Origin: Qipengyuania aurantiaca
Lineage (GTDB): Bacteria > Pseudomonadota > Alphaproteobacteria > Sphingomonadales > Sphingomonadaceae
DNA: 64,000 bases
Assembly (NCBI RefSeq): GCF_019711375.1
Contig: NZ_CP081295.1
Location: forward strand, 558,001-622,000
Direction: 5' to 3'
Position 1 is the stretch's first letter. Every line of letters starts with the position of its first letter. The notes under the pieces were generated by a model. It was not told the DNA's origin. It searched no databases and saw only the letters and a program-made list of their open reading frames with translations. The position numbers were made by a program, and so were the translations under genes. Below, in pieces: positions 21,047 to 58,891 of this stretch.

Positions 21047-21233
21047 CCTGTTTCCCTCGAAGATTGCTTCGAAAACGCGCTTACAAGGACCGCCGGAGAA
21101 CACAAGCCGCAGACCGCCGACAGTCTATCGGCATCGACGGAGGGCTTCACACCGCAAGCCCGGCCCGGTTTGCCTTACGCACGGGCCTCGCTATGAGTGC
21201 GCGCAAACGCATCCATGAAGGAGAGGATCGCAT

Positions 21234-23291
21234 ATGAAACTTCGCCCCATCGCCCTTGCCGCAAGCTTGCTGGCCGGTGCCTCGATCACCGCCACGGCGC
21301 AGGCGCGCCCGATGACGCCGGAAGATGTCGCCAAGCTGGAAAGCGTGGGCACCATCGCGGTTTCGCCCGATGGCAGCCGCATCGCCTACACCACCGCCAG
21401 CCTGCCCGACATCACCGATGGCGAGGAAAACGGCAGCACCGAGCAGCAGCTCAAGATGGCCTACGCGCCGATGAACGCGCGCGACTTTTTGCCCGAAGAC
21501 ATGAGCGTTTCGGGCATCACCTTCTCGCCCGATGGCCGCATGGTGAGCTTCCTGTGGGCCGATGAGGACGAAGACCGCGCCGTATGGGGTATTCCCGTGG
21601 ATGGCGGCGCGCAGCGCAAGCTCGCCGCAGTCGAGGATGCCAGCGTGCGCTCCTTCGCCTGGGCACCCGACGGCTCGCGCATCTGGATGCTCGCCTCGGC
21701 AGAGAACGACGAGGCCCGCGAGAAGGAATCCAAGGCCGGCTTCAACGCCATCGTCTATGAGGAAGAGGCGCGCCTCAACCGCCTGTTTTCCGCCGCCGTC
21801 GGTACCGAAGTTGACGAGGACCCGGTGGCCGTCACCATCCCCGGCTATGTCAGCGCCTTCAAGGTCGCTCCTGGCGGCAAGACCGCCGTGGTCCAGAGCG
21901 CTCCGACGCCGCAGATCGACGATGAATACACCTCCAAGCGGGCCCATGTGATCGATTTGACGAGCGGCAAGGTCCTGCGCGTCGTCGAAACCCCCGGCAA
22001 GCTGGGCGACATCGAGATTTCGCCCGATGGAAAGCAGCTGTCCATGATCGCGGGCGTCGACATGAACGACCCGGCGGATACCACGCTGCACCTGGTCGAT
22101 GTCGCCAGCGGCAGCTACCGCGCGCTCAATGCAGGCGCGCCCGAAGCGGCGGTCGATGCCGAATGGCTCGCCGACGGCCGCCTTGCCGCCGTCATCCACA
22201 AGGGCGCCCAGTCTGCGCTCCGCATCTACAACGCCAATGGGACCGTTGCCGAGGAACACGATGGCGGCGCACTCATCCTCACCAGCGTCGAGGCAGGCGG
22301 CAAAACGCTGGCCGTCGAAGCCAACAGCCCCACCCATCCGACCGAACTGTTCGTCTGGAACAAGGGCAAGTTCGCCCGCTGGACGCAGCACAACCCGTGG
22401 CTGTCGGAGATCGATTTCGGCAAGCAGCGCACCTTCCGCTACACCGCGCGCGACGGGCAGGAAGTCGAAGGCGTGCTGATCGAGCCGGTCGGCGGAGCCC
22501 CGCGCGGCGGCGCCCCGCTGATCCTCAATGTCCACGGCGGCCCCGAAGCGCATGACAGCAACGGCTGGCAGACCGCCTATTCGAAGCCCGGCCATGTCGC
22601 GGCAGGCCAGGGCTATGCCGTCTTCCTGCCGAACTATCGCGGATCGACCGGCTATGGCACGGCCTTCTCCAAGCAGCACACGGGCAATTACACCGATCCG
22701 GAATTCACCGACCTGGTCGACGCCAAGCGCGCGCTGGTCGAGGCTGGCATTGCCGACCCTGATCGCACCGGCGTGACCGGTGGTTCCTATGGCGGTTATG
22801 CCACGGCATGGTCCTCCACCGCGCTGTCGGACGAATTTGCCGCGGGCGTGATGTTCGTCGGCATTTCGAACCAGATCTCGAAGTTCGGCACGACCGACAT
22901 TCCTTACGAGATGTACAACGTCCACTCGGGCAAATGGCCGTGGGACGACTGGCAGGCCATGCTCGAAGTCTCGCCGATCTACCATGTCGACAAGGCCAAC
23001 ACGCCGCTGCTCATCCTGCACGGCGCGGAGGACACCCGCGTCGCGCCGAGCCAGAGCTACGAGCTCTATCGCTCGATGAAGGTGCGCAAGCCCGATGTGC
23101 CGGTGCGCCTCGTGCTCTATCCGGGCGAAGGCCACGGCAACCGCAAGGCCGCAGCGCGCTACGACTATAACCTGCGCATGATGCGCTGGTTCGACACCTA
23201 TCTGAAGACCGGCGACCGCGACGCGGAAATCCCGGACGCACGGCCGGTCCTGCCGGAAGGCACGACCGGAGCGGCAAAGAAGGACGACTGA
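21234..23291 (+). CDS. S9-family serine peptidase (prolyl oligopeptidase/DPP-like)
   Basis: 685-residue secreted peptidase. A Sec signal peptide (residues 1-24, ending TATAQA) is followed by a TolB-like beta-propeller (about 30-390) and an alpha/beta-hydrolase domain. The catalytic triad is visible: Ser in TGGSYGGYATAW (about residue 517), Asp in GAEDTRVAPSQS (about 599) and His in GEGHGNRK (about 632). It is expected to trim oligopeptides in the periplasm or outside. GGAGAGGA precedes the ATG. It is divergent from the DUF885 gene and is followed by a near-perfect terminator. Confidence 0.95.
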   Translation: MKLRPIALAASLLAGASITATAQARPMTPEDVAKLESVGTIAVSPDGSRIAYTTASLPDITDGEENGSTEQQLKMAYAPMNARDFLPEDMSVSGITFSPDGRMVSFLWADEDEDRAVWGIPVDGGAQRKLAAVEDASVRSFAWAPDGSRIWMLASAENDEAREKESKAGFNAIVYEEEARLNRLFSAAVGTEVDEDPVAVTIPGYVSAFKVAPGGKTAVVQSAPTPQIDDEYTSKRAHVIDLTSGKVLRVVETPGKLGDIEISPDGKQLSMIAGVDMNDPADTTLHLVDVASGSYRALNAGAPEAAVDAEWLADGRLAAVIHKGAQSALRIYNANGTVAEEHDGGALILTSVEAGGKTLAVEANSPTHPTELFVWNKGKFARWTQHNPWLSEIDFGKQRTFRYTARDGQEVEGVLIEPVGGAPRGGAPLILNVHGGPEAHDSNGWQTAYSKPGHVAAGQGYAVFLPNYRGSTGYGTAFSKQHTGNYTDPEFTDLVDAKRALVEAGIADPDRTGVTGGSYGGYATAWSSTALSDEFAAGVMFVGISNQISKFGTTDIPYEMYNVHSGKWPWDDWQAMLEVSPIYHVDKANTPLLILHGAEDTRVAPSQSYELYRSMKVRKPDVPVRLVLYPGEGHGNRKAAARYDYNLRMMRWFDTYLKTGDRDAEIPDARPVLPEGTTGAAKKDD

Positions 23292-38791: not shown

Positions 38792-40111
38792 TTATGTCGC
38801 CCAAGGCCCAGTTATGGCTACCGTCCTTGTCGGCGAATAGGCGTTGACGAAGAACCACTTGCCGTCGGGCGAGAAGCAGCCACCGGCAAGTTCGGTCTGC
38901 AGCTTGAGCCGGCCGAACACATAGGGTGCGCCCAGCGGCGTGATGCCGATCAGCCGGTTGTCGACCACCTCGGTATACTGGTCTTCGCACACGATCAGGT
39001 GGCCGTTGGGGGCCACGGTAAGATTGTCGCCATAGTTGAATTGCGCGGGATCGGAGCTCTCGAAGAACAGCTCCACCCGTTCGGGCGTGCCGTCGAAGGC
39101 GGGCTGGAGGCGGAAGACCTGACCCAGTTTGGCCGCACCGCCGCTGGTCGAGCAAATGTAAAGCTCGCCCTCGCCCATGTGGATGCCCTCGCCCCGCGCG
39201 ATCAGGGTCGCGCCCATGGCCGCGCCGCGCTTGCGCAGATCGTCGAGCGGGGCCTCGACATTGTCGAGCGCGACCCAGCGCACGCTGCGCGGCTCCTGCA
39301 CCGCGATCGAGACCGCGTCCCAGTTGCGCGCATCGGCGACGCCTTCGATCACCATCGCTTCGAGGCGGCCCGGCTCGTCGAGCCGGCCGTTGGGCACGAA
39401 CCGGTAGAGCAGGGAATCGTCGCGATCCTCGGTCAGGTAGACAAGGCCGTTGCGCGGATCGACGCAGGCCGCCTCGTGGTTGAAGCGGCCAAGATGCTTG
39501 AGCGGCTGCGCGTCCACCAGCCCGGTCGCGCTCGCCGGCACTTCGAACACCCAACCGTGGTTCTTGGCCAGCTTGTCGGGCGCGATGTGCTGGTCCTCGC
39601 TCACGAATTCCTCGCAGGTGAGCCAGCTGCCCCACGGCGTCACCCCGCCCGAACAATTGCGGATCGTCCCGGCAAGCGAGCGGAACTCGCGCTTCTTCTG
39701 CAAGGTCGCCGCGTCGAGCACGAGGGTCGTGGTGCCTCCGGGAAGGACGTGATGTCCGGCGATCGTGTCGTACCCGCTCGTCACCGTACCGCCGATATCC
39801 TGTCCCGGCATCAATTCGTGGTTGCGCACCAGCGCGATCTCCCCGCCATCGAGCGGCAGGCAGCCCATGCCGTCTGCGTGGTCGGGCACTGTGCCGCCAT
39901 CGCTCATCGCATCGCCGAGGCTGGAGAGCAGGCGGTAGGAAAAGCCTTCGGGCAGGTCGAGGAGACCGGCCGGATCGGGGACCAGATCGCCATAGCCGGT
40001 GAAGTTCGCCCAGCGCGACGCGCCGCGGGTCATGCAGCCGCTCAGCGAAAGCGCGGCAAAGGCGCTCGCGGTGGCGGACAGGAACTGGCGGCGATGAAGA
40101 CTTGCAGGCAT
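38792..40111 (-). CDS. PhoX-like (DUF839) Tat-exported protein
   Basis: 439-residue protein related to the PhoX alkaline phosphatase/DUF839 family, a beta-propeller fold in which PhoX binds iron and calcium. The N-terminus HRRQFLSATASAFAALSLSG is a twin-arginine signal followed by Cys, so it may be a Tat-exported lipoprotein. Family segments include VRNHELMPGQD, NCSGGVTPWGSWLTCEE, FNHEAACVDPRNGLVYLTED and NLTVAPNGHLIVCEDQ. GGGAG precedes the ATG at 40111. Phosphatase activity is plausible; no phosphate-responsive promoter element was identified. Confidence 0.87.
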   Translation of the reverse strand: MPASLHRRQFLSATASAFAALSLSGCMTRGASRWANFTGYGDLVPDPAGLLDLPEGFSYRLLSSLGDAMSDGGTVPDHADGMGCLPLDGGEIALVRNHELMPGQDIGGTVTSGYDTIAGHHVLPGGTTTLVLDAATLQKKREFRSLAGTIRNCSGGVTPWGSWLTCEEFVSEDQHIAPDKLAKNHGWVFEVPASATGLVDAQPLKHLGRFNHEAACVDPRNGLVYLTEDRDDSLLYRFVPNGRLDEPGRLEAMVIEGVADARNWDAVSIAVQEPRSVRWVALDNVEAPLDDLRKRGAAMGATLIARGEGIHMGEGELYICSTSGGAAKLGQVFRLQPAFDGTPERVELFFESSDPAQFNYGDNLTVAPNGHLIVCEDQYTEVVDNRLIGITPLGAPYVFGRLKLQTELAGGCFSPDGKWFFVNAYSPTRTVAITGPWAT

Positions 40112-40187
40112 GCGGTACTCCCTTGGCGGTATGGCCCAAGCCATGCGATAGCAGTGCGACAGGCAAATGACAGCAGGGAGAGCGGAG

Positions 40188-40982
40188 ATGGAACTGACCG
40201 AAGGCATGGCGGCGGTGGTCACGGGTGGGGCCAGCGGTCTCGGCAAGGCGAGCGCGCAGGCGCTGGCCGATCTCGGCCTGAAAGTGACGATCTTCGACGT
40301 GAACGAAGAGGCCGGCGAGGCGCACGCCAAGGCCATCGGCGGCACCTTTGCGCGCGTGGACATCACCGACGAGCAATCGGTCGTCGACGGTTTCGAAAAG
40401 GCGCGCGGCACCCACGGGCAGGAGCGCGTAACCGTCCATTGCGCCATGACCAGCCGCCGCGGCAAGACCTTGGGCTGGGACAAAGAAACGGGCGGCTACA
40501 AGCGCCTCTCGACCGCGGATTACGCCTATGGGGCGGAAGGCATCCTCGTCTCCTCCTATCGCATCGCCAGCCATTCCGCGCTGGGTATGGCCAACAGCGA
40601 GCCGCTGAACGCGGACGGCGAGCGCGGCTGCATCACGCTGACCGCCAGCGTGGCGGCGCAGGACGGCCAGATCGGGCAAGTTATCTATGGCAGTTGCAAG
40701 GCAGGGGTGAACGGCCTCGTCCTGCCGATGGCGCGCGACCTCATGGACCTCGGCATCCGCGTCAATTCAGTCATGCCGGGCATATTCGCCACCCCGTTGA
40801 TGCTGGGCATGAAGGACCGCAACCCACAGATGTGGGACCAGTTGAACGCCAGCGTCCCCTTCCCCAAACGCCTCGGCGAGCCGGAGGAATTCGCCTCGCT
40901 CATCTGCGAAATCGCGCGCAACAGCTACATCAACGGCCACCAGTTCCGCCTCGACGGTGCGATCCGGATGCCGCCGAAATAG
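40188..40982 (+). CDS. SDR-family oxidoreductase (3-hydroxyacyl-CoA dehydrogenase type 2-like)
   Basis: 264-residue short-chain dehydrogenase. The NAD-binding TGGASGLGKASAQAL, the active-site YGSCK (Tyr-x-x-x-Lys) and the upstream catalytic Ser region ITLTASVAAQ are visible. The N-terminus MELTEGMAAVVTGGASGLGK resembles HSD10-type 3-hydroxy-2-methylbutyryl-CoA dehydrogenases, which would fit branched-chain acyl-CoA catabolism. That assignment is inference. GGGAGAGCGGAG precedes the ATG. Confidence 0.85.
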   Translation: MELTEGMAAVVTGGASGLGKASAQALADLGLKVTIFDVNEEAGEAHAKAIGGTFARVDITDEQSVVDGFEKARGTHGQERVTVHCAMTSRRGKTLGWDKETGGYKRLSTADYAYGAEGILVSSYRIASHSALGMANSEPLNADGERGCITLTASVAAQDGQIGQVIYGSCKAGVNGLVLPMARDLMDLGIRVNSVMPGIFATPLMLGMKDRNPQMWDQLNASVPFPKRLGEPEEFASLICEIARNSYINGHQFRLDGAIRMPPK

Positions 40983-41071: not shown

Positions 41072-41183
41072 AGCCCGGAGCGGCGATTTGCCTGTGGCCA
41101 GCGTGGCGGTCAACATGGTTTTTCGCCTCCGCCCTCGCTAGGCAGGCAGCAGGAAAACGATTTGGGACCGGTTTCACAAAACG

Positions 41184-42411: not shown

Positions 42412-42458
42412 GGTTTCAACTGAAACCGGTTGATTTCGGACCTCTCGCTTGCCAAGGC
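42412..42458. promoter_or_regulatory. Two dyad elements upstream of mmsA
   Basis: GGTTTCAACTGAAACC (42412-42427) is a nearly perfect palindrome. CTTGCCAA (42438-42445) and TTGGCAAG (42451-42458) form an 8-bp perfect inverted repeat. Both lie in the 88-bp gap between the DUF819 gene and mmsA, ahead of the GAGAGGA ribosome binding site. A repressor operator is a reasonable reading; the regulator is unknown. Confidence 0.45.
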
Positions 42459-42486
42459 CGTTGGCAAGAAAAGAGAGGATTCCCCC

Positions 42487-43967
42487 ATGCGTCAGGTTGA
42501 CCATTTCATCGTCGGCGAAAGCCCGGCCCCCACCCGCAAGCACAAGATCTGGAACCCGTCCACGGGCGAGGTACAGGCGCAAGTCGCGCTCGGCGGCGCG
42601 GACCTGCTCCAGCAGGCGGTCGATGCCGCCAAGAAGGTCCAGCCCGAATGGGCGGCGACCAATCCGCAACGCCGCGCCCGTGTCATGTTCAAGTTCAAGG
42701 AACTGGTCGAGGCGAACAAGCAGGAACTGGCCGAGCTGCTTTCGAGCGAGCACGGCAAGGTCGTCGAGGACGCGCATGGCGACGTGCAGCGGGGCCTCGA
42801 AGTCATCGAATTCGCCTGCGGCATCCCGCAGGCGCTGAAGGGCGAGTACACGCAAGGTGCCGGTCCCGGCATTGATGTCTATTCGATGCGCCAGCCGCTC
42901 GGCATTGGCGCCGGCATCACCCCGTTCAACTTCCCGGCCATGATCCCGATGTGGATGTTCGGCATGGCGATTGCGGCGGGTAATGCCTTCATACTCAAGC
43001 CTTCCGAGCGCGACCCGAGCGTTCCCGTACGTCTCGCAGAACTTTTCCTCGAAGCCGGCGCGCCCGGAGGCCTGCTGCAGGTCGTCCATGGCGACAAGGA
43101 AATGGTCGACGCGATCCTCGACCATCCCGATATCCCGGCGATCAGCTTTGTCGGCTCCTCCGACATCGCGCAGTATATCTATTCGCGCGGCACGGCGAAC
43201 GCCAAACGCGTGCAGGCCTTCGGCGGCGCGAAAAACCACGGCATTGTCATGCCCGACGCGGATCTCGACCAGGTGGTCAACGATCTTGCCGGTGCTGCTT
43301 TCGGCTCGGCGGGCGAACGCTGCATGGCACTGCCCGTGGTCGTTCCCGTGGGCGAGGACACCGCCAACCGCCTGCGCGACAAGCTGATCCCCGCTATCAA
43401 CGCGCTGCGCGTCGGCGTCTCGAACGATCCCGACGCGCATTACGGCCCCGTGGTCACGCCCGAACACAAGGCGCGCGTCGAAGGCTGGATCGACACGGCC
43501 GAAAAGGAAGGCTCGACGGACGCGGCTTCACGCTCCAGGGCCATGAAGACGGCTTCTTCGTCGGCCCGACGCTGCTCGACCAGGTCACGCCCGACATGGA
43601 AAGCTACAAGGAAGAGATCTTCGGCCCGGTTCTCCAGATCGTGCGCGCCAAGGATTTCGAGGACGCTGTGCGCCTGCCCAGCGAGCACCAATACGGCAAT
43701 GGCGTCGCGATCTTCACTCGCAACGGCCACGCGGCGCGCGAATTCGCCAGCCGCGTCAACGTCGGCATGGTCGGCATCAACGTACCGATCCCCGTTCCCG
43801 TCAGCTACCACAGCTTCGGCGGCTGGAAGCGTTCGGGCTTCGGCGACATCGACCAGTACGGCATGGAAGGCCTGAAGTTCTGGACCAAGGCCAAGAAGGT
43901 CACCCAGCGCTGGCCCGACGGCGGCGGTGACGGGTCGAACGCCTTCGTCATCCCGACGATGGGGTAA
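42487..43967 (+). pseudogene. mmsA: Methylmalonate-semialdehyde dehydrogenase, frameshifted
   Basis: CoA-acylating aldehyde dehydrogenase converting methylmalonate semialdehyde to propionyl-CoA in valine catabolism. Residues from the ATG at 42487 up to EKEG match the family (AGITPFNFPAMIPMWMFG; catalytic Cys in SAGERCMALPVVVPVG). At about 43511 the frame breaks: the continuation LDGRGFTLQGHEDGFFVGP is in the next frame from 43512 and runs to the normal end (YHSFGGWKRSGFGDIDQYG, stop 43967). In relatives four residues separate EG from LDGRG, so about 13 nt appear to be missing. Read straight through, the product would have a scrambled C-terminus ending at 43875. Either a true inactivating deletion or an assembly error. 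Confidence 0.88.
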
Positions 43968-44008
43968 TACCGGCGGGATAATTCGGACCGGCGAGGCGTT
44001 GGGGGCAC

Positions 44009-45742: not shown

Positions 45743-46897
45743 ATGACTACGAATGCAGGACAATTCCAGCTCACCGAAGAGCAGCAGCAGATCCAGGAAA
45801 TGGCGCAGCGCTTCACCGCCGACAACATCACGCCGCACGCCGCGGAATGGGACGAAAAGTCGCATTTCCCGCGCGACGTCATCAAACAGAGCGCCGAGCT
45901 CGGCTTCGGGGCGATCTATGTTTCCGAAGAAAGCGGCGGCATCGGTCTCGGCCGTCTGGAAGCGGCGCTGATCATGGAAGCCATGGCCTATGGCTGCCCG
46001 GCGACCAGCGCCTATATCTCGATCCACAACATGGCCGCCTGGATGATCGACCAGTTCGGCGGGGCGCAAGTGAAGGAGAAATATCTTCCCGACCTCGTCA
46101 CGATGGAAAAGATCGCGAGCTATGCGCTGACCGAACCGGGCAGCGGCTCGGACGCGGCGGGTCTCAAGACCAGCGCGAAGCTCGAGGGCGATCATTACGT
46201 CCTCAACGGCACAAAGCAGTTCATCTCCGGTGGCGGCTTCAACGACGTTTACGTCACCATGGTCCGCACCAGCGATCACAAGACCAAGGGCATCACCTGC
46301 CTTGTGATCGACAAGGACACGCCCGGTATCTCCTTCGGCAAGCCGGAAAAGAAGCTCGGCTGGAACGCCTCGCCCACGGCGCAGGTGATCTTCGAGGACG
46401 CGCGCGTGCCCGTAGCCAACCGTGTCGGCGATGAGGGCGAAGGTTTCCGTTTCGCGATGATGGGTCTCGACGGCGGCCGCCTCAACATCGGCGCGTGCTC
46501 GCTCGGCGGGGCGCAGCGTTGCCTCGACGAGGCGGTGGCCTACACCAAGGACCGCAAGCAGTTCGACACACCCATCGCGGATTTCCAGAACACGCAATTC
46601 ATGCTCGCCGACATGGCGACCGATCTGGAGGCAGCGCGCGCGCTGCTTTATCTCGCAGCGGCCAAGGTTACGGACAACGCTCCCGACAAATCGCGCTTCT
46701 CCGCCATGGCCAAGCGCCTCGCCACCGACAGCGGCAGCAAGATCGTCAACGACGCGCTGCAGCTCTTCGGCGGCTACGGCTATCTGCGCGAATATCCCAT
46801 CGAGCGCTTCTGGCGCGACCTGCGCGTGCACTCGATTCTCGAAGGCACGAACCAGGTCATGCGCATGATCGTGGGCCGGGATTTGCTGCGCCAGTGA
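45743..46897 (+). CDS. Acyl-CoA dehydrogenase, probably isobutyryl-CoA dehydrogenase
   Basis: 384-residue flavoprotein. Family features: YALTEPGSGSDAAGLKTSA, FISGGGFNDVYVTMVRT, and the catalytic Glu region HSILEGTNQVMRMIVG near the C-terminus. It would oxidise isobutyryl-CoA to methacrylyl-CoA. The assignment to valine catabolism rests on the following genes (hydratase, 3-hydroxyisobutyryl-CoA hydrolase, mmsB). Its TGA is overlapped by the next GTG (GTGA). Confidence 0.92.
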   Translation: MTTNAGQFQLTEEQQQIQEMAQRFTADNITPHAAEWDEKSHFPRDVIKQSAELGFGAIYVSEESGGIGLGRLEAALIMEAMAYGCPATSAYISIHNMAAWMIDQFGGAQVKEKYLPDLVTMEKIASYALTEPGSGSDAAGLKTSAKLEGDHYVLNGTKQFISGGGFNDVYVTMVRTSDHKTKGITCLVIDKDTPGISFGKPEKKLGWNASPTAQVIFEDARVPVANRVGDEGEGFRFAMMGLDGGRLNIGACSLGGAQRCLDEAVAYTKDRKQFDTPIADFQNTQFMLADMATDLEAARALLYLAAAKVTDNAPDKSRFSAMAKRLATDSGSKIVNDALQLFGGYGYLREYPIERFWRDLRVHSILEGTNQVMRMIVGRDLLRQ

Positions 46898-47283
46898 CAG
46901 CGCTTGCCATGACCACCTTCCTCGTCCCCGATTACGACGAGGGCATCGCTTTCTTTCGCGAAGCGCTCGATTTCGCGCTTCACGAGGACACCGATCTGGG
47001 TGGCGGCAAACGCTGGGTCGTCATGGGTGGGGTGAACGGTGGCCGGTTGCTTCTTGCCCGCGCCACAGATGACGAGCAGCGTGCGGCCATCGGCAGGCAG
47101 ACGGGCGGGCGAGTCGGGTGGTTTCTCGCATCCGACGACTTTGCCGCCGACCATCGTCGCATGACCGCATGGGGTGTAGAATTTACCGAGGAACCTCGCC
47201 ACGAGCCCTATGGCACGGTGGCGGTCTTCAAGGACCCATGGGGCAACCCCTGGGACCTTATCGAACACAGGAAAGCAGCATGA
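46894..47283 (+). CDS. VOC-superfamily (glyoxalase-like) protein
   Basis: 129 residues with the vicinal-oxygen-chelate fold: TFLVPDYDEGIAFFREALDF at the N-terminus and EEPRHEPYGTVAVFKDPWGNPWDLIE at the end, where the terminal Glu is a typical metal ligand. The GTG start overlaps the dehydrogenase stop, and its own stop overlaps the next ATG. The substrate is unknown; its place in the valine operon suggests a side function such as detoxifying an intermediate. Confidence 0.82.
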   Translation: MTALAMTTFLVPDYDEGIAFFREALDFALHEDTDLGGGKRWVVMGGVNGGRLLLARATDDEQRAAIGRQTGGRVGWFLASDDFAADHRRMTAWGVEFTEEPRHEPYGTVAVFKDPWGNPWDLIEHRKAA

Positions 47284-48326
47284 CCGACCAGGTCCATATC
47301 CACACGCACGGCCGCATCGGCCACATCTCGCTCAACCGGCCCAAGGCGATTCACGCCCTCACGCTCGACATGTGCCACGCGATGAGCTCGGCGCTGACGG
47401 AATGGGCGTCAGATGACGCGGTCGAGGCGGTGATCCTCGATCACGCCGAGGGGCGCGGCTTTTGCGCGGGCGGCGACATCAACCTGCTGCGCAATTCGGC
47501 GCTGAACGATGGCGGGGCCTCGGGCCGCGCCTTCTTCCACGACGAGTACCAGCTCAACCACCAGATGATGACCTATCCAAAGCCCATCGTGGCTATCATG
47601 GACGGCATCACCATGGGCGGCGGCGTGGGCATCGCGCTTCCGTGCAAATACCGCGTCGCGACCGAGCACACGCGCTTCGCCATGCCCGAAACCGGCATCG
47701 GCCTCTTCCCCGATGTGGGCGGCGGCTGGCACCTCTCGCGCCTCGGCGGCAGGCTCGGCCAGTTCCTGGCGCTGACCGGCGCGCGGCTCGACGGCGCGGA
47801 ATGCGTCTGGGCCGGTATCGCCACGCATTACCTCCCGTCCGAAAGGCTGGAGGAAGCCAAGGCGCGCATCGTCGAACATCCCGACCGGATCGCCGGCATC
47901 CTTTCCGAACTGTCCGAGACGCCGCCCGAAGCGCGCATCGAAGGCAATGCGGAAAAGATCGCCCGCCACTTCGCCTCCGACCGCTACGAGGACATCCTCG
48001 CCAGCCTCGAAGCCGAGGACAGCGACTGGGCCGCCAAGGAACTCGCCACGCTGCGCACCAAGAGCCCGCAGACCTGCAAGGTCGCGCTGCGCCAGCTGGC
48101 GGAAAGCGCGAAGCTCGACGATTTCGCCGACAACATGGTCATGGAATACCGCATCGCGAGCCGCGTGCTCACCCGGCCCGACTTTGCCGAAGGCGTGCGC
48201 GCGGTGATCGTGGACAAGACCAACGACCCCAAATGGGATCCGGCCACGCCCGAGGGCGTGAGCGAGGACCTGCTCGACAGCATCTTCGCCCCGCTTCCCG
48301 CCGAAGAGGAATGGAAACCCCTATGA
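47280..48326 (+). CDS. 3-hydroxyisobutyryl-CoA hydrolase
   Basis: 348-residue crotonase-fold thioesterase, longer than plain hydratases as expected for HIBCH. Key segments are [51 protein letters not shown] and [20 protein letters not shown], and the HIBCH C-terminal [19 protein letters not shown]. It releases 3-hydroxyisobutyrate from its CoA ester, the step unique to valine breakdown. ATG overlaps the VOC stop. Confidence 0.93.
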
Positions 48327-49105
48327 CTTTCGAAACCATCACCGTCGAACAGCGCGATGCCGTCACGCTGATCACCTTGAACCGCCCCAAGGCGCTCAAC
48401 GCGCTCAACTCGAAAGTGCTCGAAGAACTGATCGAGGCTTTTGCCGCCTACCAGGCCGACAGCAGCCAGCTGTGCGCGGTCCTCACCGGCTCGGGCGACA
48501 AGGCCTTTGCCGCCGGCGCCGACATCAAGGAAATGAGCGAGAAGGACGCGGCAGACTTCTATCTCGACGATTTCTTCGCGCCCTGGACCAGCGAGATCGC
48601 GAAGAAGACCCGCAAGCCGTGGATCGCCGCGGTCAACGGCTTCGCGCTCGGCGGCGGGTGCGAGCTCGCCATGATGGCGGACTTCATCATCGCTTCGGAA
48701 AACGCCAAGTTCGGCCAGCCCGAAATCAAGCTCGGCGTTGCGCCCGGCATGGGCGGTTCGCAGCGTCTGACCAAGGCCATCGGCAAGTCCAAGGCCATGG
48801 AAATGTGCCTGACGGGCCGCATGATGGGCGCTGAGGAAGCCGAACGCAGCAACCTCGTCGCGCGCGTGGTGCCGCATGACGATTTGCTCGACGATGCGAT
48901 GAAGACCGCTGCCCAGATCGCCTCGATGCCCCCGATGGCGGCGATCGCGAACAAGGAAATGGTCAACGCCGCCTTCGAGACCAGCCTCGACCAGGGCCTG
49001 ATCATCGAGCGCCGCATCTTCCAGATCCTCACCGCGAGCGAGGACAAGAAGGAAGGCATGGCCGCCTTCGTCGAGAAGCGCGAGGGTAAGTGGACTGGGA
49101 GGTAA
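48323..49105 (+). CDS. Enoyl-CoA hydratase (methacrylyl-CoA hydration)
   Basis: 260-residue crotonase. Both catalytic Glu regions are present, in [20 protein letters not shown] and [31 protein letters not shown] is the usual oxyanion segment. Placed between the HIBCH gene and mmsB it most likely hydrates methacrylyl-CoA to 3-hydroxyisobutyryl-CoA. ATG overlaps the previous stop by 4 nt. Confidence 0.95.
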
Positions 49106-49360: not shown

Positions 49361-50227
49361 ATGAAAATCGCCTTCATCGGCCTCGGCAACATGGGCGGCG
49401 GGATGGCCGCGAACCTTGTGAAGGCGGGGCACGCGGTCAACGCCTTCGACCTGTCGGACGAAGCCCTCGCCACGGCCAAAGACAACGGCTGCGCGACATA
49501 CACCGACGCCTCTGAAGCGGTTCAGGGTGTCGATGGCGTGGTGACGATGCTTCCCAATGGCGGGATCGTGAAGTCGGTCTACGAAAGCAGCGTCATCGGC
49601 AAAGCTCCAGAAGGCGCAGTGCTGCTCGACTGCTCGACCATCGACGTCGCCACCGCCAAGGAGGTGATCGCCAAGGCCGAAGCTGCCGGATACGACATGG
49701 TCGATGCCCCGGTCTCGGGCGGTATCGCGGCGGCCAATGGCGGCACGCTCACTTTCATGGTCGGCGGCACCGAAAAGGCCTTCAAGCGCGCCGAAGAGGT
49801 GCTGAACGCGATGGGCAAGGCTGTTATCCACGCAGGCGATGCCGGTGCGGGGCAGACGGCGAAGATCTGCAACAACATGCTGCTCGCCATCACTATGATC
49901 GGCACGACCGAAGCGATGAAGATGGCCGAAAAGCTCGGCCTCGACCCGCAGAAGTTCTACGAAATTTCGAGCCAGTCCTCAGGCTACTGCTGGCCGCTCA
50001 ACGCCTATACGCCGATGCCCGGCGTTGGCGTCGAGAGCCCGGCGGACAAGGACTATCAGGGCGGCTTCGCCACTGCGCTTATGCTCAAAGATTTACGCCT
50101 CGCGATGGAAGCGGCGGGAAGCGTCGATGCGAAGACCGCGCTCGGCAAGCATGCCACCGAGATCTACGAGGCGTTCGCCGAGGAGAACGGTGGCCTAGAC
50201 TTCTCGGCGGTGATCAAGACGCTCTGA
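49361..50227 (+). CDS. mmsB: 3-hydroxyisobutyrate dehydrogenase
   Basis: 288-residue NAD-dependent beta-hydroxyacid dehydrogenase. The N-terminal Rossmann motif AFIGLGNMGGGMAANLVKAG, the substrate-binding VDAPVSGGIAAANGGTLTFM, the catalytic Lys region GAGQTAKICNNMLL and KDYQGGFATALMLKDL are all present. It makes methylmalonate semialdehyde, the substrate of MmsA, whose gene is frameshifted upstream. Its 3' end overlaps the convergent Nmad3-like gene by 14 bp. Confidence 0.96.
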   Translation: MKIAFIGLGNMGGGMAANLVKAGHAVNAFDLSDEALATAKDNGCATYTDASEAVQGVDGVVTMLPNGGIVKSVYESSVIGKAPEGAVLLDCSTIDVATAKEVIAKAEAAGYDMVDAPVSGGIAAANGGTLTFMVGGTEKAFKRAEEVLNAMGKAVIHAGDAGAGQTAKICNNMLLAITMIGTTEAMKMAEKLGLDPQKFYEISSQSSGYCWPLNAYTPMPGVGVESPADKDYQGGFATALMLKDLRLAMEAAGSVDAKTALGKHATEIYEAFAEENGGLDFSAVIKTL

Positions 50228-54400: not shown

Positions 54401-54780
54401 CAAAGCCCGTCGCAGAAGCTCTTGTAAGCCTTGTCGTCCATAAGCCCTTCGAGCTCGGCCTTGTCGGAAACGGTCATCTTGAAGAACCAGCCGTCTTCTT
54501 CCGGCGAGGAATTGACGAGTGCGGGATCGTCTTCCAGCCCGTCGTTCACCTCGACGACTTCGCCCGATAGCGGCGCGTAGACGTCGCTTGCGGCCTTGAC
54601 GCTCTCGACCACGGCGGCGTCCTTGCCCTTTTCGACCATGGTGCCGACTTCGGGCAGTTCGACGAAGACGATGTCGCCCAGCTGGCCTTGCGCGAAATCG
54701 GTGATGCCGACCGTGGCGGTGTCGCCTTCGAGGTCGATCCATTCGTGTTCATCGGTGAAATAGCGAGCCATCTGAGTCAT
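54400..54780 (-). CDS. gcvH: Glycine cleavage system H protein
   Basis: 126-residue lipoyl carrier. It begins with the typical [20 protein letters not shown] and carries the lipoylated Lys in [27 protein letters not shown] and the C-terminal [18 protein letters not shown] are conserved. It shuttles the aminomethyl group from GcvP to GcvT. The ATG overlaps the gcvT stop (ATGA). Confidence 0.98.
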
Positions 54781-55952
54781 TTCCCTCTGTGGTAGCGATT
54801 GGGGACGAAGGGCATGGCGGCAACCTTCGCGGGCAGTCTCTTCTTACGAACCTCGACCTCGACTTCGGTTCCCTCGGTGGCGAGGCCGGTGTCGATATAG
54901 GCCATGGCGATCGGGCGCTGGAGCGTGGGCGAGAAGCCGCCGCTGGTGACGCGGCCGACCTGTTTGTCGCCCGAGTAGACCAGCGCGCCTTCGCGGGCCG
55001 GCAGGCGACCTTCGATGTTGAGGCCGACGCGCTTTTGCGCCGGACCATCGGCGAGCACCTTGGCGACCGCTTCATGGCCCATCCACCCGCCTTCCTCGCG
55101 GCGCTTCTTGGTCAGTGCGAAGAGGAGGTCGGCGGAAACCGGATCGGTCTCCGTGGTGATGTCGTGGCCGTAGAGCGGCAGGCCTGCTTCCAAGCGCAGG
55201 CTGTCGCGCGCGCCGAGGCCGATGGGGCGCACCTCGATTTCCGCGCACAGGCGGTTGCAGAAGCTTTCCGCATGCTCGGCCGGAAGCGAGATCTCGAAGC
55301 CGTCTTCACCGGTGTAGCCCGAGCGGGTGATGCGCAGCGGCCATTCGCCGAAATCGTGGCAGACCGAATCCATGAATACCATGTCGTCGATGACGTTGCG
55401 CATCACGCGGTTCAAGGCCGTCGCCGCGTTGGGCCCCTGCAGGGCGACCAGCGCGTGGTCGTCCATGTGGGTGAGCGTGACATCGTCGTCGAGATGCTCG
55501 CGTAGGTGGGCGATATCGTCCCACTTCATCGCGCCGTTGACGACGAGGTAATAGGCCGGATCGCCCCAGTGGCCTTCGGCGCCTTCCTCTTCGTCGCCCT
55601 CGATCCACGGCGTCGCGTTGGTGACCATGAGATCGTCGAGGATGCCGCCATCTTCGGCCATCAGCAGCGAATAGCGCGTGCGGCCGGGCTTCAGCGATGC
55701 GATGGCGCCGGGCAGGAGCTTTTCGAGTTCCTCGGCCGCCTTGTCGCCCGTGACCATGAGCTGGCCCATGTGGCTCACATCGAACAGGCCCGCCTGCTCG
55801 CGCGTCCAATTGTGTTCGGCGACGATGCCTTCATACTGGATCGGCATTTCGTACCCGGCGAAGGGCACCATGCGCGCGCCCTTGCGGCGATGCCATGCGT
55901 CCAGCGGCAGCGTCTGGATTTCACCATCGGTGTTTTCGTGTTCTTCGCTCAA
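54777..55952 (-). CDS. gcvT: Glycine cleavage system aminomethyltransferase (T protein)
   Basis: 391-residue folate enzyme releasing ammonia and forming methylene-THF. Conserved parts: [56 protein letters not shown] and [19 protein letters not shown]. The start is probably TTG at 55952, giving [20 protein letters not shown], because AAGGACGGG lies just upstream and no ATG precedes the conserved region. First gene of the operon, behind a tandem glycine riboswitch. Confidence 0.95.
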
Positions 55953-56011: not shown

Positions 56012-56200
56012 CCCTCTGTCGGGAAACCTGAGAGACTGGCGCGCAGATGAGCGCGCTTACCCCTTCGGTGGCCGCGGCACGAAGCTGCGACGCTTTCCAG
56101 AGTGTCGATGGCGGCGCACGGTCCCGAATGCCTGAGAGTTTCCGGGGCGGTTGCTCCTTCGGCGCTGTGCGGGTGTCCCCCGCACAGGCTCTCCCGTGCG
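56012..56200 (-). ncRNA. Tandem glycine riboswitch
   Basis: Two consecutive glycine aptamers are readable on the minus strand. Aptamer 1 (about 56200-56115) has CGCACGG/CCGTGCG as its closing stem, GGGAGAGCC, CCGAAGGAGCAA and ACTCTCAGGCA. Aptamer 2 (about 56103-56012) has CTGGAAAG, CACCGAAGGGGTAAGC, TCTCTCAGGTT and CGACAGAGG. It precedes gcvT, the classic target, and normally turns the operon on when glycine is abundant. The region is non-coding. Confidence 0.95.
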
Positions 56201-56263
56201 CGCCCGCCGCAGAATCGCTCCCGAGGCCGACGCAAGACGCCCTGCGCGACTATGCGCGCGGGG

Positions 56264-58891
<2,628 letters not shown>

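Follow-up and report, generated by a model that had tools for sequence, protein, structure and literature searches.

A probable, very recent 13-nucleotide deletion in the only recognisable mmsA gene of an Erythrobacter/Qipengyuania-group bacterium

Introduction

The loss of bacterial genes through short insertions and deletions is well known. In the case of mmsA, the consequence of loss has been described in Cupriavidus necator where, according to the available part of the source, loss of mmsA3 abolishes growth on valine (PMC6572756). The case considered here resembles the Cupriavidus necator H16 delta-mmsA3 mutant, as described in that part of the source, in that the mmsA gene of the valine pathway appears to be lost in both, and differs from it in that C. 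necator H16 has three mmsA genes and its mutant was engineered, whereas the present genome holds one recognisable copy, which is broken (PMC6572756). Judging from its accessible portion, another paper is concerned with the expression of mmsA (PMC2667423), and in the literature, so far as its texts were accessible, we found no report on this mmsA locus in this bacterial group.

The second relevant class of described systems are the single-lesion bacterial pseudogenes; many putative bacterial pseudogenes are technical artefacts, as stated in the excerpt available from PMC11017572. The gene described here is like the pseudogenes of that excerpt (PMC11017572) in that it carries one frame-breaking indel, is conserved otherwise and is intact in relatives, and it differs in that the lesion spans 13 nt and does not involve a homopolymer, which might make it somewhat less similar to a read error.

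The mmsA locus and its two halves

The DNA that we analysed, hereinafter the window, is a stretch of 64,000 nucleotides. It contains mmsA, the gene for CoA-acylating methylmalonate-semialdehyde dehydrogenase (TIGR01722), on the forward strand at 42487-43967, with the ATG at 42487 and the remains of the gene ending at 43967. The first-pass annotation had assigned the broken gene to 43490..43970; given the full span, this interval is right for the second part of the gene and wrong for the whole. Frame 0 is open up to ...IDTAEKEG (codon 43510-43512) and then runs out of frame until a stop at 43873-43875, and the frame beginning at 43512 reads LDGRGFTLQGHEDGFFVGP..., with the stop at 43965-43967, and represents the resumed mmsA family sequence. 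Thus, the earlier reading, namely an intact frame up to EKEG with the family sequence resuming one frame over at 43512, is borne out by the reading frames.

The in-frame 5' part (42487..43512, +) consists of 342 native residues that match positions 3-339 of the TIGR01722 profile as well as PF00171, and includes the GERCMAL stretch, the cysteine of which we take to be catalytic. It is followed by the deletion junction, at which 13 nt are missing between 43512 and 43513 (+), and by an out-of-frame tail of 120 foreign residues (43513..43875, +, including the stop; part of the ORF 42430..43875), for which no Pfam match was detected over 43510-43872. The displaced 3' part (43512..43967, +; 151 residues) lies in another frame, unjoined from the 5' part, and matches profile positions 344-477 and the C-terminal part of PF00171. 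The two halves produce two TIGR01722 matches in different frames, with 442.6-443.4 bits for the 5' part and 190.1-191.1 bits for the 3' part, and there is no single uninterrupted frame above the curated cut-off of 448.5 bits. Both halves descend from mmsA at a conserved locus, as indicated by the order of the profile segments and by the conservation of the neighbours in relatives. Compared to MmsA of Erythrobacter sp. SD-21 (TIGR01722, 497 aa), the 5' part is 98% identical and the two halves match successive segments of the family model at the same locus; unlike the SD-21 gene, the window mmsA lacks 13 nt, has its halves in separate frames and has a predicted read product of 462 residues, in which 120 foreign residues follow 342 native ones.

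The deletion and its context

In the alignment of mmsA loci, only the window row has the 13-nt gap after 43512, all 43 relative rows being continuous at this point (the best-matching 45 of 126 loci less the 2 of the window itself; some genomes occur twice, as two collections were used). The remaining gaps of the window row amount to 3, 12, 3 and 6 columns. Furthermore, the spacing between the two halves is identical in all 108 intact relative ORFs and exceeds that in the window by 13 nt. These ORFs come from 141 loci, after filtering for identities of >70% (5' part) and >60% (3' part), with some genomes repeated (SD-21 three times). Of the 33 loci that lack a qualifying ORF, 8 belong to the genome of the window and 14 to other families of the order, 1 is truncated at a contig end (L070), 5 are other aldehyde dehydrogenases and 5 are stretches adjacent to the gene; the 14 loci from other families, which are over the MMSDH cut-off, presumably fall below the identity filters. 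Both the alignment and the spacing agree with the earlier estimate that about 13 nt are gone, and the spacing also confirms that relatives carry four more residues at the junction. Among the genomes compared, the disabling change is private to that of the window: all 43 relative rows are ungapped, and each of the 24 other genomes of the same genus in the order-level set contains an MMSDH match that exceeds the cut-off.

Only one placement of the gap is compatible with the relatives, so that the C at 43512 is common to both frames and is not a repeated base at the ends of the deletion; the deletion had been thought to be flanked by a shared C, and this part of the annotation is unsupported. The comparison with relatives reveals no direct repeat at the deletion ends, and there is no homopolymer at the site, in keeping with the original judgement that this is not a typical homopolymer read error. 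A deletion-prone hairpin was considered and rejected: the 71 nt that surround the site in the intact SD-21 gene show no stronger folding than their shuffled versions (z 0.26; equalled or surpassed by 121 of 200 shuffles). There is no special mechanism in view for the loss of mmsA.

Selective constraint and the age of the break

In the comparison with SD-21, omega is 0.036 for the 5' part of mmsA and 0.054 for the 3' part, with values of 0.031 to 0.120 for nine other genes of the window. With Q. xiamenensis as the outgroup, the non-synonymous and synonymous changes in mmsA number 6 and 38 on the window branch, of which 2 and 24 fall in the 5' part and 4 and 14 in the 3' part, and 7 and 34 on the SD-21 branch. 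In the absence of constraint, the window branch should have accumulated approximately 123 non-synonymous changes, and under the constraint of the sister branch approximately 8. The 6 changes observed against the unconstrained expectation imply that no more than roughly 10% of the window branch, counted from its divergence from SD-21, passed without constraint, where this bound is a 95% limit derived from parsimony counts with one outgroup. Strong constraint on both halves means that the break is either very recent or an assembly error; if real, this would be a gene loss seen prior to visible further decay.

Two observations could hint at such decay. The 3' part has 4 non-synonymous changes on the window branch against 2 on the sister branch, and codon 194 counted from the Met (43066-43068), a nearly invariant position of the 5' part, encodes Gly in the window and in none of the 218 other aligned proteins, which have E, D, A or Q. 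We considered Gly194 as a second, independent disabling lesion and did not count it because the solved enzyme 4e4g has Ala in the aligned position. Together, these observations are too little to argue for decay.

The constraint on both halves might also be expected if an active enzyme were still made, either through ribosomal frameshifting that joins the halves or through separate translation of the 3' part to complement the 5' part. For the latter, there is an in-frame ATG at 43596 with an AGG about a dozen bases before it, but inspection by eye reveals no clear ribosome-binding site at the usual distance, and a start at this position would drop 28 residues of the 3' part. Even with the frame recovered, four residues would be absent, and recency accounts for the constraint. 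A frameshift that is programmed, or a split gene conserved in relatives, would appear among close relatives as the same short spacing combined with an intact frame; a comparison with such relatives had been suggested at the outset, and this form is found in 0 of the 108 intact ORFs. We regard the continued production of an active enzyme as extremely unlikely.

A real deletion or an assembly error

The same constraint, with no clear relaxation of selection on either half and no further disabling change, is equally expected if mmsA is intact in the organism and the 13 nt were dropped in sequencing or assembly, and the technical origin of many putative pseudogenes, as given in the excerpt cited above, likewise points in this direction (PMC11017572). 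However, the missing stretch spans 13 nt without a homopolymer or direct repeat at its ends, and the genome is a nearly complete single contig (2,825,489 bases; assembly listed as 99.99% complete). A loss of 13 nt outside a homopolymer is atypical as a read error.

To check for artefacts, we compared coding-like ORFs of two syntenic relatives with the window (hits at >=65% identity for the SD-21 count). In the SD-21 comparison, 28 of the 32 ORFs are open over at least 85% of their length in one frame, with three flags for breaks and one partial ORF; in the Q. xiamenensis comparison, 40 of 42 ORFs are open and the remaining two carry a flag. The mmsA gene is flagged in both, and we judge it to be the only break inside a conserved gene body in the two comparisons. 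According to the ORF listings, the flags that a naive ORF comparison places at about 24505 and 54775 are located between genes or upstream of them, and the other flags of the coding-like comparison, near 41151-41175, 54776-54904 and 56131-56313, are upstream extensions of open genes, which we judge to be outside the genes from the likely starts. Thus, with the other flags outside gene bodies, the assembly shows no conspicuous load of frame errors within the window.

Two further observations belong to this comparison. One SD-21 ORF matched the window over only 54 of its 514 residues (21221-21382). At 38895-40483 (-), in a gene that we take to be PhoX-like, the SD-21 ORF falls in two frames of the window, the window's own gene being open; this is possibly a draft error in SD-21 or an artefact of ORF choice.

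The same lesion was not found elsewhere among the best 120 of 8000 scored proteins. Three of these (P0001, P0032 and P0044) cover more of the out-of-frame query, retain the residues missing in the window mmsA and have the frame broken later in the gene. Another database entry for mmsA, P0034, continues beyond a similar point with an end that looks unrelated. These anomalies may be sequencing errors or independent losses, and if the later breaks in the three proteins are scattered errors, they would lend some weight to an error in the window as well. Among the same best 120 of 8000 proteins, none exceeds 98% identity over the aligned part, so that no other strain of the species was recognised. 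With all these considerations, an assembly or consensus error appears unlikely, and we infer that the deletion is present in the organism itself, beyond the assembly.

The search for a spare copy

The last step to propionyl-CoA had been predicted to be lost unless another copy exists, and no such copy was recognised: no other site in the genome reaches the MMSDH cut-off. None of the 10 TIGR01722 matches in the whole genome (E <= 0.001) is above 448.5 bits; two of these are the mmsA halves, and the next best aldehyde dehydrogenase scores 286.6 bits. When five of the eight other matches were scanned with NCBIfam (matched stretches only, families at E <= 1e-90), four were above no cut-off and one was above that of succinylglutamate-semialdehyde dehydrogenase. 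Given that relatives hold comparable second-rank aldehyde dehydrogenases beside an intact mmsA, those of the window genome are unlikely to be hidden mmsA copies. A plasmid search with mmsA returned 11 matching records, the best at 81.3% (Sphingopyxis sp. FD7).

The rest of the valine pathway

Four valine genes follow mmsA in the same direction, and all are open. The first encodes an acyl-CoA dehydrogenase (45743..46897, +), a neighbour of mmsA in relatives that matches acyl-CoA dehydrogenase models, none over the cut-off, and is probably the isobutyryl-CoA dehydrogenase by its position. It is followed by the genes for 3-hydroxyisobutyryl-CoA hydrolase (47274..48326, +; NF004127, 396.4 bits, cut-off 274), for an enoyl-CoA hydratase (48350..49105, +; NF004517, 355.2 bits, below the cut-off of 396) and by mmsB, for the 3-hydroxyisobutyrate dehydrogenase that makes the substrate of MmsA (49361..50227, +; TIGR01692, 387.1 bits, cut-off 291.6). 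None of these neighbours is flagged as broken in the syntenic comparisons, in agreement with the first-pass annotation, which had the other valine genes of the window intact. Elsewhere in the genome, a protein of the methylmalonyl-CoA mutase family is over its cut-off with the frame open, and close to its gene there is an open carboxyltransferase gene, which by position we take to be that of propionyl-CoA carboxylase. The accD gene, flagged for a stop, was considered as broken and rejected, being a complete ORF of 282 aa. Among the steps tested, from the acyl-CoA dehydrogenase to mmsB and on to the carboxyltransferase and the mutase, MmsA alone is broken.

Between the acyl-CoA dehydrogenase and hydrolase genes, there is also a glyoxalase-like (VOC) gene (about 46909-47283, +; PF00903). 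In SD-21 and Q. xiamenensis, no such gene occurs at this position, the two flanking genes being separated by 7 and 11 nt, respectively; hits were obtained in 6 of the 84 loci searched, with four of the rows listed lying between the same two genes.

mmsA across the family

The closest named relative by DNA is Erythrobacter sp. SD-21, with 92.4% identity over the gene, followed by Qipengyuania xiamenensis with 90.2%; these two and Q. gaetbuli are each over the MMSDH cut-off, and so are three further genomes of the genus in the family survey. In the order-level set, 39 of the 41 genomes are over the cut-off, the exceptions being the genome of the window and one other of the same order (G031). Among the 298 genomes of the family survey (the window's included; usually with five candidates scored per genome), 248 score above the MMSDH cut-off and 49 lack any match at E <= 1e-100; in the subset with a completeness of at least 90% and a contamination of at most 5%, 39 of 278 are without a match at this threshold. 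Life without mmsA is thus tolerated in the family, in which the gene is common yet dispensable, and the genomes without a match at E <= 1e-100 suggest repeated loss of this valine step.

Possible repeated loss invites the question of whether the deletion was selected, because halting valine breakdown at this point helps, for example, by avoiding propionyl-CoA or by excreting intermediates. Nothing separates such selection from drift or laboratory passage, and the gene is kept in 27 other genomes of the genus examined, so that we deem an adaptive loss exceedingly improbable. That the other valine genes are kept open also speaks against it. A variant in which the truncation was selected in a lineage that retains those genes, such that valine would be only partly oxidised and an intermediate, such as 3-hydroxyisobutyrate, excreted instead of being converted to propionyl-CoA, is very unlikely, too.

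Implications

The explanation that we favour, and consider quite probable, is that this Erythrobacter/Qipengyuania-group bacterium lost its only recognisable mmsA through a real 13-nt deletion that happened very recently. Ribosomes would read 342 native residues and then 120 foreign ones, the C-terminal part of MmsA would be lost, and the displaced 3' part would seem to have no good start of its own. Judging from this predicted product, MmsA is almost certainly inactive. Valine breakdown would then run to methylmalonate semialdehyde and halt before propionyl-CoA. The loss is ordinary, recent and possibly strain-level, and the general understanding is unchanged by this case, given that about one in six of the sampled family genomes (49/298) has no match at E <= 1e-100. 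If the deletion is real, it calls for caution with metabolic models built from this genome and, for valine by analogy with the C. necator mutant, predicts a simple phenotype: the strain should not grow on valine or on isobutyrate.
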